A stretch of 64,000 nucleotides of DNA from Sphingorhabdus sp. SMR4y. GTDB taxonomy: Bacteria; Pseudomonadota; Alphaproteobacteria; Sphingomonadales; Sphingomonadaceae. Position 1 is the first letter of the stretch. Each line of letters starts with the position of its first letter. The notes under the pieces are model-generated. The model saw only the letters and a program-made list of their open reading frames with translations. It had not been told where the DNA came from and searched no databases. The stretch is from the NCBI RefSeq assembly GCF_002218195.1, contig NZ_CP022336.1, forward strand, positions 2,227,001 to 2,291,000. Reading direction: 5' to 3'. The position numbers were made by a program, and so were the translations under genes. Of the stretch, positions 1 to 5,587 are shown piece after piece.

Positions 1-21
1 ACCCCGGCCGAATGGCAATAT

Positions 22-76: not shown

Positions 77-370
77 ATGTCTACTCTGGTCAAAACAACC
101 GCCGCAGCCGCCGCCCTCGCCGCCGCCGCCACCCTGTCCCTGTCCGCCACCGCCGCGCAGGCCGCCGGCGCGAAGGAAAAATGCTATGGCGTCGCACTCG
201 CCGGCAAGAATGACTGCGCGGCCGGTCCGGGCACGAGCTGCGCCGGCACTTCGACGGCCGACTATCAGGGCGATGCCTGGAAATATGTCGCCAAGGGCAG
301 CTGCGTCAAAATGGGCGGTACGCTGGCCGCGCACAAGGGCAATGCGAAACCGGTTCCCAAAAAGGGCTGA
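77..370 (+). CDS. bufA1: BufA1-type bufferin precursor peptide (DUF2282)
   Basis: This is a secreted 97-residue precursor of the DUF2282 family, the substrate of MNIO enzymes in bufferin operons. Residues 1-30 are an alanine-rich signal peptide ending near AQA-AGA. The mature part has four cysteines, C36, C47, C55 and C76, in the family pattern [17 protein letters not shown] and GSC. In studied family members cysteines are converted to metal-binding groups and the peptide buffers copper; that activity is inferred here. ATG 77 is chosen over an in-frame ATG at 20 because it has an AGAGGA ribosome-binding site and starts directly at the signal peptide. The modifying enzyme gene follows 18 bases later. 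Confidence 0.93.
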
Positions 371-388
371 ACCCGCTAAATTCCGTGG

Positions 389-1303
389 ATGGCCGCTATT
401 CCTGCCCCTCATGTTTCGTCGGTGACCCCGATGCCGAACTCCCTCCCCCCGTCGGGCGGCATTGGTCTCAAGTCGGTCCATTACAGCCATGTGCTGGACG
501 ATAAGACGCCAGCGAAACGCCCCTCCTGGGTGGAGGTCCATCCACAGAATTACTTCGGCGATGGCGGACCGGCGCACCGCTGGCTCACCGCCATCGCCGG
601 GGTCTATCCCCTGAGCTTTCACAGCGTCGGCCTGTCGCTCGGCAGCGCCGGCGGGCTGAACAGCGATGACCTGGAAAAGCTGGCCGCGCTCTGCGACCGC
701 TATCAGCCCGCCATGGTCTCCGACCACCTCAGCTGGAGCGGCAATGCCCATGACCGCTACCCCGACCTGCTCCCCATTCCCTATACGCGCGAAGCGCTCG
801 ATCATTTTGCCGGCGAGATCGGCAAGGTGCAGGACCGGCTGCAACGCCCGATCCTGATCGAAAATCCGTCGCGCTATCTGTCCTATCGCGATGACAGCAT
901 GAGCGAGACCGACTTCATCCACACGCTCTGCCGGCAAGCGGGCTGCGGGCTATTGTTCGACATCAACAATGTCGAGGTGACCGCAACCAATGTCGGGCTG
1001 GACATGACCGCCTATATCGACGCGATCGATCCGGCAATCGTCGGCGAAATCCACCTCGCCGGCCATGCCACGGAAAGTCATGACAGCGGACCGCTGCTGA
1101 TCGACGATCATGGATCGATCGTCAGCGATATCACCTGGGACCTCTACCGCCGCTTCATCTCCCGTGCCGGACCGAAGCCGACGCTGATCGAATGGGACAC
1201 GGACATTCCGGACTATGATGTGCTGATGGCAGAGGTCGCCAAGGCCGAAACCATATTGGCCGACCCCCTGCCGGAGGAGCCGCGCCATGCCCTCGCTCGC
1301 TGA
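389..1303 (+). CDS. bufB: MNIO-family peptide-modifying oxidase (DUF692)
   Basis: This is a multinuclear non-heme iron oxidative enzyme of the DUF692/MbnB family, with a TIM-barrel fold, that acts on cysteines of the adjacent DUF2282 peptide. Expected metal ligands are visible: His78 in SFHSVG, Asp112-His113 in SDHLSW, Glu158 in IENPSRY, Asp191 and Asn193 in DINNVE, Glu220 and His222 in GEIHLAG, His241 in DDHGS and Glu268 in IEWDTD. The 304-residue length uses ATG 389. ATG 431, which begins a few residues before GIGLK as in many relatives, is a real alternative, and neither has a strong ribosome-binding site. The end overlaps the next gene by 17 bases, which implies coupled translation. Product chemistry is inferred from the family. 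Confidence 0.93.
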   Translation: MAAIPAPHVSSVTPMPNSLPPSGGIGLKSVHYSHVLDDKTPAKRPSWVEVHPQNYFGDGGPAHRWLTAIAGVYPLSFHSVGLSLGSAGGLNSDDLEKLAALCDRYQPAMVSDHLSWSGNAHDRYPDLLPIPYTREALDHFAGEIGKVQDRLQRPILIENPSRYLSYRDDSMSETDFIHTLCRQAGCGLLFDINNVEVTATNVGLDMTAYIDAIDPAIVGEIHLAGHATESHDSGPLLIDDHGSIVSDITWDLYRRFISRAGPKPTLIEWDTDIPDYDVLMAEVAKAETILADPLPEEPRHALAR

Positions 1304-2018
1304 CAGCCAGTCGCGATTCATCGCCTGCCTGCAAAAAGGCCCGGCGCATTTTCCCGATGACCTGTTCGCCGAGGACAAGGCGCGCGCGCTGCTCGGTCTG
1401 AAGGCCCATGCCAACACCATCTCCCACGCCCGGCTGGTGGCGCTGGAAGATTGCTATCCCCGCTTGCACGAGCATATCGGCCATGAAGATTTTCTCGGCC
1501 TCTCGCGTGCCTATGTCGAGCAACAGACGGTCATGGCCAGCGATCTCAACCATATTGGCGCCGGCTTTCCCGAATTTCTAGAGGAGCGCGGATATCGCGG
1601 CGCGGAAACCGATCTTGCCCGGATCGAATGGGCCTGGCTGGAAAGCTATCGCAGCGCCGATACCCAGCCGCTGGCGCTGACCGATATCGCCACGCTCGGC
1701 GAAGCGGACCTGCTAGCCTTTCCCCTGGCCGCCCATCCGGCGATGCGGCTGATCGGACTGACCGCGCCGCTGTCGCCGGCACTGCCCGAACTGGCGGGCA
1801 TGGACCCCGATGCGCTGATGATCGCCCGGCCGGAAGCGCAGGTCCTGTTCCATCCGCTGACCGCGACCGAACGAGCGATTGCGGAAAAAATTCCCGCGTG
1901 CGCAAATATCGGTAACCTTTTGGCCTATGCGCTCGAACTGGGGGATGAAGCCACGGCGATGCAGCCCATTATCAAGCTGATCCAGGCCGGGGCGCTGACA
2001 CCAGTCGAGGGAATTTGA
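1287..2018 (+). CDS. bufC: BufC/HvfC-type MNIO partner protein (DUF2063)
   Basis: This 243-residue protein matches the DUF2063 partner always found beside DUF692 enzymes; it is thought to bring the precursor peptide to the oxidase. The N-terminal half carries the family helices (QSRFIACLQKGP, YPRLHEHIGHEDF, LSRAYVE). The C-terminal part is a more variable domain ending in a winged-helix-like segment (EKIPACANIGNLL, IQAGALTP). There is no signal peptide, so modification is expected in the cytoplasm before export. It starts inside bufB and ends one base before the DoxX gene, so the genes are tightly coupled. Confidence 0.88.
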   Translation: MPSLADSQSRFIACLQKGPAHFPDDLFAEDKARALLGLKAHANTISHARLVALEDCYPRLHEHIGHEDFLGLSRAYVEQQTVMASDLNHIGAGFPEFLEERGYRGAETDLARIEWAWLESYRSADTQPLALTDIATLGEADLLAFPLAAHPAMRLIGLTAPLSPALPELAGMDPDALMIARPEAQVLFHPLTATERAIAEKIPACANIGNLLAYALELGDEATAMQPIIKLIQAGALTPVEGI

Positions 2019-2019
2019 T

Positions 2020-2460
2020 ATGAAATCCATGGTCAGGAAGATGATCCGGCTGGTCAGCGGTTCGCTGCCGGAGGGCATCGCCCTGCTGTTCGTCCGCTTG
2101 GCGCTCGCCGGCATTTTCTGGCGCTCCGCCCGGACCAAGGTCGAGGAGGACAGCTGGCTGCAGGTGAGCGATACCACGGTTCTGCTGTTTCGCGAGGAAT
2201 ATGGCATGCCCTGGCCGGAAATCACCGGCCTGCTGGCGACCTATGCAGAGCATTTTCTGCCCATCCTGGTGGTGCTCGGCCTGTTTACCCGAATCGGCGC
2301 CGCCGGATTGCTGGTAATGACTCTGGTCATCCAGTTTTTCGTCTATCCCGAGCCCTGGTGGCAGGTGCATATTCTCTGGGTGGCGCTGGCCGGCATATTG
2401 ATCGTGCGGGGTGGCGGCCTGTTTTCGGTCGACCGGCTGACCGGTCACAAGTTCGGCTGA
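2020..2460 (+). CDS. DoxX-family integral membrane protein of the bufferin operon
   Basis: This is a 146-residue DoxX-like protein with about four membrane helices (ALLFVRLALAGIFW, ITGLLATYAEHFLPILVVLG, LLVMTLVIQFFVYP, ILWVALAGILIV). DoxX proteins are common fourth genes in DUF2282/DUF692 operons, where a redox or quinone-linked role has been suggested. No catalytic residues are recognisable. It begins one base after bufC and ends four bases before the sigma-factor gene, so it is clearly co-transcribed. Confidence 0.85.
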   Translation: MKSMVRKMIRLVSGSLPEGIALLFVRLALAGIFWRSARTKVEEDSWLQVSDTTVLLFREEYGMPWPEITGLLATYAEHFLPILVVLGLFTRIGAAGLLVMTLVIQFFVYPEPWWQVHILWVALAGILIVRGGGLFSVDRLTGHKFG

Positions 2461-2464
2461 ACCG

Positions 2465-2989
2465 ATGATCGCCAGCGAAGAAACATTCCGGCGTCTGATG
2501 ACCAAGGCCCAGGCTGGCGACAAGCTCTGCTATTCCAGCCTGCTGACCGAATGCGAAAAATGGCTGCGGCGCTATTATGCGCGCAAGATCAACCCGGCGG
2601 CGATCGATGATCTGGTTCAGGAAACGCTGATATCGCTGCACCGCAAGCGGGCGAGCTACGATCCGGCGAGGCCCTTTCTGCCATGGCTCGCCGCTATTGG
2701 CCGCTATCGCTGGATCGACAGCCTGCGCAAGATATACCGGCACGAACATGACCAGCTCTATGAAGATATGGTCGCCGATCCGCAGGACGAAACGGTTACC
2801 GCCAAGGTTAGCCTCGCGCGCCTGCTCGACATGCTCCCGCCGAAACAGGCCGAGGTGATCAGCCTGGTCAAGATCGAAGGGCTCAGCATCATCGAGGCTT
2901 CGGCCAGGACCGGCCAGTCGGAATCATTGGTCAAAGTGAATATCCATCGGGGACTGAAAAAGCTCTCCTCGATGGTCGAATCAGAATGA
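2465..2989 (+). CDS. sigF: ECF RNA polymerase sigma factor, SigF-like
   Basis: This is a 174-residue ECF sigma factor. Sigma region 2 covers about residues 15-90 with the typical AIDDLVQETLISLHRK and PFLPWLAAIGRYRWIDSLRK segments. Region 4 covers about 115-170 with LLDMLPPKQAEVISL, then a helix-turn-helix (SIIEASARTGQSESLVKVNIHRGLKKL). The following gene encodes a DUF1109/NrsF protein, the anti-sigma partner of Caulobacter SigF, which controls a bufferin-type gene set in response to copper and oxidative stress. It therefore probably drives this operon, including itself. The symbol is assigned by context and family, not by a phylogeny. Confidence 0.88.
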   Translation: MIASEETFRRLMTKAQAGDKLCYSSLLTECEKWLRRYYARKINPAAIDDLVQETLISLHRKRASYDPARPFLPWLAAIGRYRWIDSLRKIYRHEHDQLYEDMVADPQDETVTAKVSLARLLDMLPPKQAEVISLVKIEGLSIIEASARTGQSESLVKVNIHRGLKKLSSMVESE

Positions 2990-3008
2990 CAGTAGAAGAG
3001 TATATATA

Positions 3009-3644
3009 ATGTCGGACATGATGATAGATCGTCTCGTTGAAGATTTGACGCCCGTGAAACCATTGAAAAACCGCAACGGTTTTGCCCTTACACTGGCGAT
3101 GGCCGCGATCGTGGCGGCGCTGGTTGTCATGATCGCCGGAATTCGCGGGGATATTCTGATGGGCATGCCCCATCCGATGTTCTTTCTACGGGGCGGAGTG
3201 CTGCTGCTGCTGGGTCTGACCAGCAGCTATGCCGTCATCGCGATGAGCCAGCCGGCCGTCGGCAACAGCTTCAAGGGCTGGATCTGGGCTCTCGCCGCAG
3301 CCCTGCTCTTTCCGGCCACGGCAGCGGTCATGGCAGTGATCGCGAGGCCCGACGATATGGCGATACTGGTCCCGCGCTATGGCATGGAATGCCTGGGAGT
3401 CAGCATGCTGGCCGGTCTTGGCATCGCGGCGGCCCAGGTGCTCTGGCTGCGCCGCGGCGCGCCGGTGGCTCTGGAACGGGCGGGCTGGCTGGTCGGCATG
3501 TCGTCCGGCGCGCTCGGCGCCGCAGCCTACAGTCTGCACTGCCCGTTCAACAGCATATTCTATGTCGGCCTGTGGTATTCTCTGGCCGTGGCATTATGTG
3601 CAATTGGCGGGCGTTTGCTGGTGCCCCGGCTTATCCGCTGGTAA
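3009..3644 (+). CDS. nrsF: NrsF-type membrane anti-sigma factor (DUF1109)
   Basis: This 211-residue protein has a short cytoplasmic N-terminus followed by six hydrophobic segments, the DUF1109 layout. It would hold the upstream ECF sigma factor at the membrane until signalled. Two cysteines, C128 in YGMECLG and C178 in SLHCPFN, sit almost where I recall the sensory cysteines of Caulobacter NrsF (about 131 and 181); a third, C197, lies in the last helix. That supports thiol or metal sensing. The start is 19 bases after the sigma gene. Fifty bases separate it from sppA, so the operon probably ends here. Confidence 0.9.
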   Translation: MSDMMIDRLVEDLTPVKPLKNRNGFALTLAMAAIVAALVVMIAGIRGDILMGMPHPMFFLRGGVLLLLGLTSSYAVIAMSQPAVGNSFKGWIWALAAALLFPATAAVMAVIARPDDMAILVPRYGMECLGVSMLAGLGIAAAQVLWLRRGAPVALERAGWLVGMSSGALGAAAYSLHCPFNSIFYVGLWYSLAVALCAIGGRLLVPRLIRW

Positions 3645-3694
3645 TATCGGGCCGCGATCCCATATAGTGGGATGAATCCGGTCAAAACAGGGAT

Positions 3695-5587
3695 ATGAAT
3701 ATGCAATTTGCGCGAGCGGCGTGGAAATTTCTGGTCGCGATAAAGGACGCTATGGTCCTGATCGCCATGCTGCTGTTTTTCGGCGCGCTTTATGCCCTGC
3801 TGTCGGCCCAGCCCAATAGTGGCGCGATCCGCGACGGCGCCTTGCTGCTCGATCTGAATGGCGTGATTGTCGAAGAGCCGGCAGCGCCGACCTTCGAGGA
3901 TTTCCTGGCGGGCGCCGGCAACAGCCCGCGCGAATATCGCTTGCGCGATGTCGTCCGTGCGATTGATGCCAGCGCGGAGGATGACCGCGTCAAAGCCATT
4001 GTTCTGGACCTCAGCAGCTTCGCCGGCGGCGGCCAGACCAGTCTGACCGATATCGGCGAATCGCTCGCCCGCGCCAAAAAGGCGGGCAAGCCGGTCTACG
4101 CATTTGCCAATTTCTACAGCGATGACAGCTACCAGCTTGCAGCCCATGCCACGGAAATCTGGATGGATCCGATGGGCGGAATCATCTTTGCCGGCCCCGG
4201 CGGCAACCGGCTCTATTACAAAGGCCTGATCGACCGGCTCGGCGTGACCGCCAATATCTATCGCGTCGGCACCTACAAGAGCGCCGTCGAACCCTATATG
4301 CGCGCCGACCAGTCGCCCGCCTCCCGCGAGGCATCGCAGGCGCTTTACGACGTGCTTTGGCAGGGCTGGCTTGCCGACATCAGGAAATCGCGGCCCCAAG
4401 CCATGGTCAAAGGCTTTGCCGAAGATCCCGCGACGGTCATCGCTGCCGCCGGTGGCGACTATGCTGCGGTCGCCATGCAACAGAAACTGGTCGATAAACT
4501 GGGCGACAAGACCGCCTTTGACCGCTTTGTCGCCGAAAAGGTGGGGCTGGACGAAACGGCCACGCCGGACCGGTTCAACGCGATCGACTATGACGACTTT
4601 GTCGCCGCCCATCCGGTCGGGACGGACGGCTCCGCGATTGGCGTGATCACCGTTGCCGGAGAGATTGTCGGCGGCAAGACGGGTCCCGGCATGGCCGCCA
4701 GCGGCCGGATTGCCGAGCTCATCTACAGCGCCTTGGAAGAAGAAGACATCAAGGCGCTGGTGGTCCGTGTGGATTCACCCGGCGGCTCGGCCTTCGCCAG
4801 CGAAGAAATTCGTCTGGCCCTGCTGGAGGCAAAGAAGAAGAACCTGCCGGTCATCGTCTCGATGGGCGATGTCGCGGCCAGCGGCGGCTATTGGATCGCA
4901 ACCGCCGGCGACCATATTTTTGCCGAGCCCGACACGATCACGGGGTCCATCGGCGTGTTCGCGGTTCTGCCGAGCTTTGAAAAGGCGCTTGCGAAATGGG
5001 GGATCACGGCCGACGGCGTCCAGACCACGCCGCTGTCTGGCGAGCCCGATTTTGTCGGGGGATTCAGCGACGATCTTGATGTGATTCTGCAGGCCGGTGT
5101 CGAAGACAGCTATGGCGACTTCATCAAACTGGTCGCAGCAGCGCGCGGCAAGACAGCACAAGAGGTCGATACGATCGGACAGGGCCGCGTCTGGGACGGC
5201 GGCACCGCCCGGCAACTGGGCCTGGTCGACAGCTTTGGCGGCATGACCGAGGCACTGGCCGAGGCGGCCGAGCGCGCGGGCCTCGCTCAAGGCTCCTATC
5301 ACCCGCAATATCTCGATCCACAGAGCAGAATCTCCTGGCTGCCGTTTGAAGTCCTGCCCCTGGTCCGGCAGCAATCTGCGCCGGTCACTGGGGTCATCGG
5401 CTGGGCCGCGCAGCGCCAGAAGGCAATCGCCGGCGAAGCGCTGGCGACTGCGCAGGGCTTGCTGGCCCGCGAGGATGTCCAGGCATTGTGCCTCGAATGC
5501 GGAACCGGCGTGCACCGGAACGCCAGCGCGTCGGCCAGCTGGTTCGACCGGCTGCTGGGCTATTCCCTGTCTTCCGCTCCGCGATAG
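3695..5587 (+). CDS. sppA: Signal peptide peptidase SppA, 67-kDa long form
   Basis: This is a 630-residue double-domain SppA, an inner-membrane serine protease that cleaves remnant signal peptides. Residues 17-38 form the N-terminal membrane anchor (DAMVLIAMLLFFGALYALL). The catalytic Lys is K195 in VGTYKSAVEP, in the N-terminal S49 domain. The nucleophile is S396 in GDVAASGGYW, in the C-terminal domain after the SPGGS oxyanion motif. Length and Lys/Ser spacing match the E. coli type. Its 3' end overlaps the convergent UPF0126 gene by 28 bases, so the last nine codons are read on both strands. Confidence 0.95.
   Translation: MNMQFARAAWKFLVAIKDAMVLIAMLLFFGALYALLSAQPNSGAIRDGALLLDLNGVIVEEPAAPTFEDFLAGAGNSPREYRLRDVVRAIDASAEDDRVKAIVLDLSSFAGGGQTSLTDIGESLARAKKAGKPVYAFANFYSDDSYQLAAHATEIWMDPMGGIIFAGPGGNRLYYKGLIDRLGVTANIYRVGTYKSAVEPYMRADQSPASREASQALYDVLWQGWLADIRKSRPQAMVKGFAEDPATVIAAAGGDYAAVAMQQKLVDKLGDKTAFDRFVAEKVGLDETATPDRFNAIDYDDFVAAHPVGTDGSAIGVITVAGEIVGGKTGPGMAASGRIAELIYSALEEEDIKALVVRVDSPGGSAFASEEIRLALLEAKKKNLPVIVSMGDVAASGGYWIATAGDHIFAEPDTITGSIGVFAVLPSFEKALAKWGITADGVQTTPLSGEPDFVGGFSDDLDVILQAGVEDSYGDFIKLVAAARGKTAQEVDTIGQGRVWDGGTARQLGLVDSFGGMTEALAEAAERAGLAQGSYHPQYLDPQSRISWLPFEVLPLVRQQSAPVTGVIGWAAQRQKAIAGEALATAQGLLAREDVQALCLECGTGVHRNASASASWFDRLLGYSLSSAPR

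Follow-up and report, generated by a model that had tools for sequence, protein, structure and literature searches.

A Buf1-type bufferin operon and its predicted sigma-F/NrsF regulon in Sphingorhabdus sp. SMR4y

Introduction

How would a peptide-modifying gene cluster be controlled when genes for a sigma factor and an anti-sigma factor follow it on the same strand, and which other genes would answer to that sigma factor? The question is raised by positions 77-3644 of a 64,000-nucleotide stretch of the Sphingorhabdus sp. SMR4y genome (contig NZ_CP022336.1, positions 2,227,001 to 2,291,000, forward strand; hereafter the window). Six open frames on the + strand encode, in this order, a DUF2282 peptide, an MNIO enzyme, a DUF2063 protein, a DoxX protein, an extracytoplasmic function (ECF) sigma factor and an NrsF anti-sigma factor. 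An initial annotation had described them as a bufferin-type operon for a ribosomally synthesized and post-translationally modified peptide (RiPP), joined with its own stress sensor in one transcript. The analysis presented here makes it quite probable that a Buf1-type bufferin operon operates within a sigma-F (ECF16)/NrsF envelope-stress regulon.

In Caulobacter, sigF and NrsF control bufferin-type operons (PMC3511200), and the sigma-F motif GTAACC-N16-CGAA was mapped by 5' rapid amplification of cDNA ends (Kohler et al., PMC3511200). Copper induces the Caulobacter SigF regulon, and disruption of sigF yields copper-sensitive cells (PMC8224329). In Buf1 relatives, the inner cysteines become thiooxazoles and the outer pair forms a disulphide; for the Caulobacter Buf1, chelation of Cu(I)/Cu(II) by its thiooxazoles and improved growth in copper excess are described (PMC12452194).

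Results

Composition of the operon

The six genes and two candidate promoters are listed below, with Pfam bit scores against the gathering cut-offs.

1..12 (3' end), + strand: presumed promoter P1, perfect GTAACC-N16-CGAA by motif scan, CGAA (-10) at 9-12
77..370, + strand: bufA, Buf1 (DUF2282) precursor of 97 amino acids; DUF2282, 85.6 bits against 22.4
389..1303, + strand: bufB, MNIO enzyme of the BufB type; MbnB_TglH_ChrH, 314.8 bits against 25
1287..2018, + strand: bufC, DUF2063 partner protein; DUF2063, 46.4 bits against 27.2
1912..1937, + strand: presumed promoter P2 within the bufC coding sequence, perfect GTAACC-N16-CGAA by motif scan and conservation
2020..2460, + strand: doxX (working label bufD), DoxX-family membrane protein; DoxX, 62 bits against 23.6
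2465..2989, + strand: SigF-like ECF sigma factor; Sigma70_r4_2, 49.4 bits against 25.7, and Sigma70_r2, 45.5 against 24
3009..3644, + strand: NrsF-family anti-sigma factor; NrsF (PF06532), 156.6 bits against 26.8

The coordinates give an 18-base gap, a 17-base overlap and gaps of 1, 4 and 19 bases along the six genes. Together with the family scores, all above cut-off, they bear out the tight packing on one strand that had been proposed. Of 91 loci examined in the taxonomic family (89 fetched, two from the SMR4y genome), 17 showed the same gene order, own locus included; among the 76 named loci retrieved with the MNIO protein, 38 did. Six loci were common to both sets, leaving 49 distinct six-gene loci. 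Because this order recurs in relatives, the arrangement is not due to chance. The relatives' loci were those among the matches listed and represent a part of the genomes; DUF2282 was present in 66 of the 199 genomes of the family. A further 22 of the 91 loci carried bufB-bufC divergent from bufA-doxX-sigF-nrsF.

A separate layout was observed in nine of the 91 loci (L067, L071, L098, L102, L110, L117, L120, L122 and L127), in which a second, Buf2-type precursor and bufB come after sigF-nrsF on the same strand and the Buf1 gene and doxX are divergent. All three precursors tested passed NF050166. Sigma-factor/NrsF genes are stated to occur in Buf1, not Buf2, clusters (PMC12452194).

The peptide and its modifying enzymes

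The family profiles and the MNIO cut-offs support a Buf1-type bufferin operon. The bufA frame stays open further upstream and has another ATG at 20; the ATG at 77 was taken as the start because it gives a signal-like N-terminus, as judged by eye. Read from this codon, BufA contains exactly four cysteines (Cys36, Cys47, Cys55 and Cys76) in the Buf1 pattern, the number given in the initial annotation. All four lie past an Ala-rich N-terminus ending in AQA, assigned by eye and not by a signal-peptide predictor. The EGKCG repeat was absent from the BufA sequence. By analogy with characterised relatives, BufA would bind copper and carry thiooxazoles.

The MNIO scored 342 bits against the NCBIfam model MNIO_BufB (NF050167, cut-off 310) and stayed under the cut-offs for HvfB (208 against 360), ApyH (75 against 400), MbnB (52 against 325) and ChrH (33 against 600). 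The earlier naming of a bufferin-type MNIO is upheld by these equivalog cut-offs, on which the BufB assignment rests rather than on a tree. Sequence relatives in the PDB were the DUF692 protein 3bww, the DUF692 chain of the TglHI complex (8hci) and MbnB (7dz9/7tcr). In an alignment of 128 MNIO relatives, a group of His, Glu, Asp and Asn residues was nearly invariant, as expected for a metal-dependent enzyme at the level of the alignment rather than of mapped metal sites. The closest MNIO relatives among named strains were in Sphingorhabdus sp. 109 (92%) and Parasphingorhabdus flavimaris (84%).

A sequence search of the PDB with BufC at E 0.1 gave no match. Its AlphaFold model (mean predicted local distance difference test score, pLDDT, of 93) matched NGO1945 (3dee) by Foldseek with E 1.3e-5 and a template modelling score of 0.61 on the query, and also matched chain A of the TglHI complex (8hci_A). 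According to the model, BufC carries the known partner-protein fold (PME-type 1). The DoxX protein was HvfX-like, yet scored under the cut-off of NCBIfam NF050144 (50.5 against 80 bits).

Stand-alone DUF2282 lipoprotein-like genes were observed at L142:6468-6803 and L143:2330-2665. They kept the outer two cysteines and lacked the inner two, which bear the modification in Buf1, which suggests degenerate or repurposed bufferins. In one genome, an extra DUF2282-type gene was located immediately upstream of the bufferin operon (L086:1549-2283) without a sigma-F motif.

The sigma factor and NrsF

The sigma factor was assigned to group ECF16, judging from the NrsF partner gene and the motif at the presumed promoters. 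The NrsF protein scored 71.4 bits against NCBIfam AntiSigF_NrsF (NF042994, cut-off 300), which places it within the Pfam family only. Cys128 and Cys178 were invariant in 53 of 53 aligned family sequences (ORFs, i.e., open reading frames, with E < 1e-20 and 190-330 amino acids), and the third cysteine, Cys197, was variable. In a set with more distant NrsF proteins, Cys128 was invariant and Cys178 was conserved in at least 90%. By order and approximate position, without alignment, the two residues match C131/C181 of Caulobacter NrsF and C129/C179 of OsrA. The NrsF AlphaFold model (mean pLDDT 84) showed six long helices after an N-terminal one, and a Foldseek search with it returned nothing under E 0.001. 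If the N-terminus is cytoplasmic, Cys178 would lie in a loop on the periplasmic side and Cys128 close to the helix end that faces the periplasm; the OsrA topology agrees with such a placement (PMC3420878). The families, the invariant cysteines and the perfect sigma-F motif sustain the claim that the operon has its own sigma/anti-sigma pair.

The motif before bufA

P1 begins 14 bases before the first base of the window, with GTAACC (-35) at G000:C1:2226987-2226992, and stands 64 bases from the bufA start codon, a position resembling that at Caulobacter CC3254 (start site at -61). The ECF16 target pattern (T/C)GTAAC-N17-CGAA was likewise present at the predicted promoters. In the taxonomic family, the motif with spacer 16 and at most one mismatch was found upstream of 68 of 91 bufA (DUF2282) ORFs; 24 of 115 bufA-profile ORFs, which were without the required four-cysteine core (Buf2-type, shadow or variant), had been removed before this count. 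The same 91 ORFs gave no match at any of spacers 14, 15, 17 and 18, and 3, 3, 2 and 1 matches at spacers 12, 13, 19 and 20. The reversed motif matched at 1/91 and 20 shuffled motifs at 13/1820. That P1, P2 and the regulon motifs described below act as promoters is inferred from motif and conservation.

The motif inside bufC

P2 lies 82 bases before the doxX start codon. It was kept in 53 of 56 distinct bufC ORFs from the family and named sets (51 perfect, two with one mismatch), in the same reading frame and near the bufC 3' end. This count was made after removal of six twice-fetched genes, covers loci other than the 22 with the divergent layout, and does not score a chance out-of-place match in L324 as P2. 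The three bufC ORFs without P2 were that of L317, which is cut by the contig end, the second bufC-like ORF of L321, and L324. All 17 six-gene family loci carried P2 (15 perfect, two with one mismatch).

The constraint on P2 appeared to go beyond the protein. Its first codon was GGT, CGT, TGT or AGT in 53/53 ORFs, though the residue differs (G 41, R 5, C 4, S 3), and the codon preceding GAA ended in C in 53/53, despite nine different encoded residues. With the peptide fixed and codon usage pooled, a perfect motif would be spelled with a probability of 0.010-0.045 per locus (median 0.025); because the loci share ancestry, these values cannot be freely multiplied.

In ten bufC ORFs from other clades, none of which has sigF next to it, the closest match to P2 had 2-4 mismatches, and no site was in place on the L324 contig, which is without sigF. 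In a Rhizobium locus (L341), the motif stands, with one mismatch, directly ahead of a separate sigF-nrsF pair, as in Caulobacter. No motif with fewer than four mismatches was found in a Caulobacteraceae locus (L349). The conserved internal motif predicts a second, nested transcript. The single transcript proposed initially is compatible with the gene spacing; because of this motif, it is probably an incomplete description.

Predicted regulon members outside the operon

The SMR4y genome, a single contig of 3.48 Mb, contained 12 spacer-16 motif matches. Two were in the operon and six stood before coherent genes, encoding a lipoprotein bufferin, the methionine sulfoxide reductases MsrB and MsrA, a DUF1223 protein, a TlpA-like (AhpC/TSA) lipoprotein and a glutathione-reductase-like protein (gor). 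The remaining four (L020-L023) were set aside, as they look like chance matches.

The stand-alone lipoprotein Buf1 gene was located at L015:3102-3461 (G000:C1, about 1932602-1932961), next to a gene that we take to be tgt-like. It encodes a lipobox (LSA-C) and five cysteines, four of them in the Buf1 pattern. A perfect sigma-F motif starts 85 bases ahead of its start codon, and no MNIO gene lies alongside. Only one MNIO gene was found in the genome; therefore, the lipoprotein bufferin, if modified, is modified in trans. Among stand-alone lipoprotein bufferins, the motif was present at 7 of 20 in the family and 8 of 12 among the genus loci seen. Lipidated bufferins are already in print, as Buf2 (PMC12452194) and as bufferins (PMC12636315), so lipidation is not new here.

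MsrB and MsrA of SMR4y have N-terminal extensions that resemble export signals by eye. In the genus, own genome included, the motif with at most one mismatch was present at 23/24 msrB, 22/23 msrA, 19/19 DUF1223 (those with upstream DNA), 19/21 TlpA-like and 19/21 gor orthologs. The counts for the first four genes omit L193 (start cut off) and L171 (23 bases upstream), as well as L233 and L231 (no tblastn match) and the genus paralogs L230 and L262. In other families of the order, the motif stood at 0/36 homologs with usable upstream DNA, some of them distant homologs and not orthologs, and the 16 other-family genomes searched gave no NrsF hit.

One genus genome, G215 (97% complete), gave no hit for NrsF, DUF2282 or DUF1223. 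Its msrB, msrA and gor (loci L162, L256 and L419) had no motif, and TlpA-like was found only as a distant paralog. This pattern is an apparent co-loss of the regulon.

Genes flanking the operon

The next gene downstream was as follows.

3695..5587, + strand: sppA, signal peptide peptidase, 50 bases past nrsF, probably outside the operon

sppA was considered as a seventh operon gene, as it adjoins in many relatives, but it was left out because the gap carries a CCATATA box. This box was present in the nrsF-sppA gap (window 3645-3694) in 9 of 10 loci whose gaps were inspected (among L287-L298), and is probably sppA's own promoter. Scans for sigma-70-type promoters and terminators gave chance level only. 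Upstream of the operon is a divergent sequence, presumably groES/groEL-like.

Discussion

Proposed mechanism

As long as there is no stress, NrsF, with its six helices in the inner membrane, would hold the sigma factor. A copper excess in the periplasm, or the oxidation of thiols, would act on Cys128/Cys178 and free it, as suggested by Caulobacter NrsF and Bradyrhizobium OsrA. Free sigma-F would read P1, giving BufA, BufB, BufC, DoxX and more sigma-F/NrsF, and would also read P2, giving an extra doxX-sigF-nrsF transcript as an autoregulatory loop. BufB-BufC would turn the two inner cysteines of BufA (Cys47/Cys55) into 5-thiooxazoles ahead of Sec export, and the exported BufA would bind periplasmic copper. 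In parallel, sigma-F would activate the lipoprotein bufferin, MsrA, MsrB, the DUF1223 protein, the TlpA-like lipoprotein and probably glutathione reductase. Metal capture and the repair of oxidised envelope proteins would then rise together. The copper link for this operon is proposed because of the Caulobacter results.

A broader idea is put forward tentatively, with somewhat less than even confidence. One BufB-BufC pair may serve two bufferins, the exported BufA and an unlinked lipid-anchored Buf1, both under the same sigma factor as periplasmic Met-sulfoxide repair. The autoregulatory promoter of this sigma factor would be kept in the RiPP partner gene, in DNA under double selection as protein code and promoter.

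Alternative explanations

Several observations weigh against the proposed mechanism. The motif was not enriched genome-wide (25 matches at spacers 15-17, compared with 33 when the pattern was reversed); likely sites can be told from chance ones only by their position before genes and by being conserved in relatives. The gor motif sits within the coding sequence of the gene upstream, and conservation extends to the spacer, which makes gor a weaker case. Stand-alone lipoprotein bufferins were often without the motif (13/20 in the family, 4/12 seen in the genus). The genome G212 (87% complete) gave no NrsF hit yet kept the motif at msrB, msrA, TlpA and gor, with a degraded motif at its lipoprotein bufferin, which may reflect assembly incompleteness. 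Two loci, L093 and L105, retain P2 without an adjacent sigF; NrsF is encoded elsewhere in both genomes, and P2 could serve doxX there. These two loci would also suit an explanation in which P2 is no promoter but a side effect of selection on the BufC protein (a Gly-Asn-Leu-Leu...Glu helix), with a single transcript that starts at P1. The Asn and Glu at the motif are indeed conserved (59/60 each, duplicates included), and the gene spacing is compatible with one operon. We regard this explanation as improbable, since the residues vary at the two constrained codons while the constrained bases stay fixed, 51 perfect sites stand against a chance of about 0.025 per locus, and P2 was not in place in the ten other-clade ORFs or in L324.

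The inducer is a further point of dispute. The same sigma group answers hydrogen peroxide in Bradyrhizobium (PMC3420878), hypochlorite in Brucella and Cr/Cd in Caulobacter, and deletions of Caulobacter MNIO genes left Cr or Cd sensitivity unchanged. Because ECF16 relatives answer oxidants, the inducer here could be oxidants. The main rival explanation is then a primarily peroxide or hypochlorite response, in which the bufferin would act as a redox buffer or be sacrificed as a thiol, and copper would be a secondary trigger. The predicted regulon outside the bufferin genes consists mostly of redox repair (MsrA, MsrB, TlpA-like and gor), in agreement with such a response. However, Caulobacter Buf1 is described as a copper chelator via thiooxazoles (PMC12452194), and Caulobacter sigma-F targets were not induced by reactive-oxygen-generating agents (PMC3511200) but were induced by copper (PMC8224329), which leaves this explanation unlikely in our view. 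It is very improbable that the MNIO installs another modification, such as the oxazolone-thioamide of oxazolins and methanobactins, or that the peptide binds another metal. MNIO chemistry does differ between families, and a similar Cupriavidus gene set was induced by gold and silver besides copper (PMC8224329); against this, the enzyme passes the BufB cut-off and not those of HvfB and MbnB, and the precursor has the Buf1 four-cysteine pattern and no EGKCG repeat.

Comparison with known systems

The initial annotation had implied that a modified peptide combined with a stress sensor is novel; this combination is already in print (PMC12452194, PMC3511200 and PMC8224329, with a similar set in PMC10304878). 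The operon repeats a known design, nearest to Sphingorhabdus/Parasphingorhabdus, and its regulatory layout is unusual. The present analysis adds the wiring, namely P1, the bufC-internal P2 and the regulon members outside. No report of a bufC-internal promoter or of a sphingomonad version of this regulon was found in the open-access literature searched, where no search was aimed at intragenic or internal promoters. Sequence alone predicts which envelope-repair genes would rise with the copper-binding peptide; a candidate promoter is named within a coding gene, and a genus-mate (G215) has seemingly lost the regulon set. Furthermore, the signal sensed by NrsF and the in-trans modification of the lipoprotein bufferin become directly testable in cultured relatives, e.g., Parasphingorhabdus.

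The Buf1 clusters of the MNIO survey are alike in that precursor, MNIO, DUF2063, DoxX, sigma factor and NrsF are all named; the survey has no promoter analysis, and 'promoter' has 0 occurrences in its main text (PMC12452194). The sigma/DUF1109 pairs of group ECF16, EcfF-OsrA of Bradyrhizobium and BcrS-AbcS of Brucella, are similar in Cys129/Cys179 and in their Msr targets, with autoregulation in Bradyrhizobium. Msr genes are common to several ECF16 regulons, so their presence here is expected in kind. In the consulted text, the words DUF2282 and DUF692 are absent from the Brucella paper, and DUF2282 from the Bradyrhizobium paper. The cited literature also includes PMC8315932.

Cupriavidus metallidurans gigPABT with rpoQ-rsqA shares a small periplasmic four-cysteine leader protein and an adjacent ECF sigma/anti-sigma pair, and is copper-induced (PMC10304878). 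Unlike the same-strand pair here, rpoQ-rsqA is divergent from gigPABT (PMC10304878). The operon also resembles CC3254-CC3257 (and CC2907-2905) of Caulobacter crescentus/vibrioides, with DUF2282, DUF692, DUF2063, DoxX, SigF, a two-cysteine NrsF and GTAACC-N16-CGAA promoters. In Caulobacter, sigF-nrsF (CC3253-3252) forms its own operon with its own promoter, whereas here the pair lies downstream of doxX on the same strand, with its presumed promoter inside bufC. The Caulobacter regulon holds a sulfite oxidase/sulfoxide reductase (YedY); in Sphingorhabdus sp. SMR4y, the predicted regulon has the repair genes for MsrA and MsrB instead.

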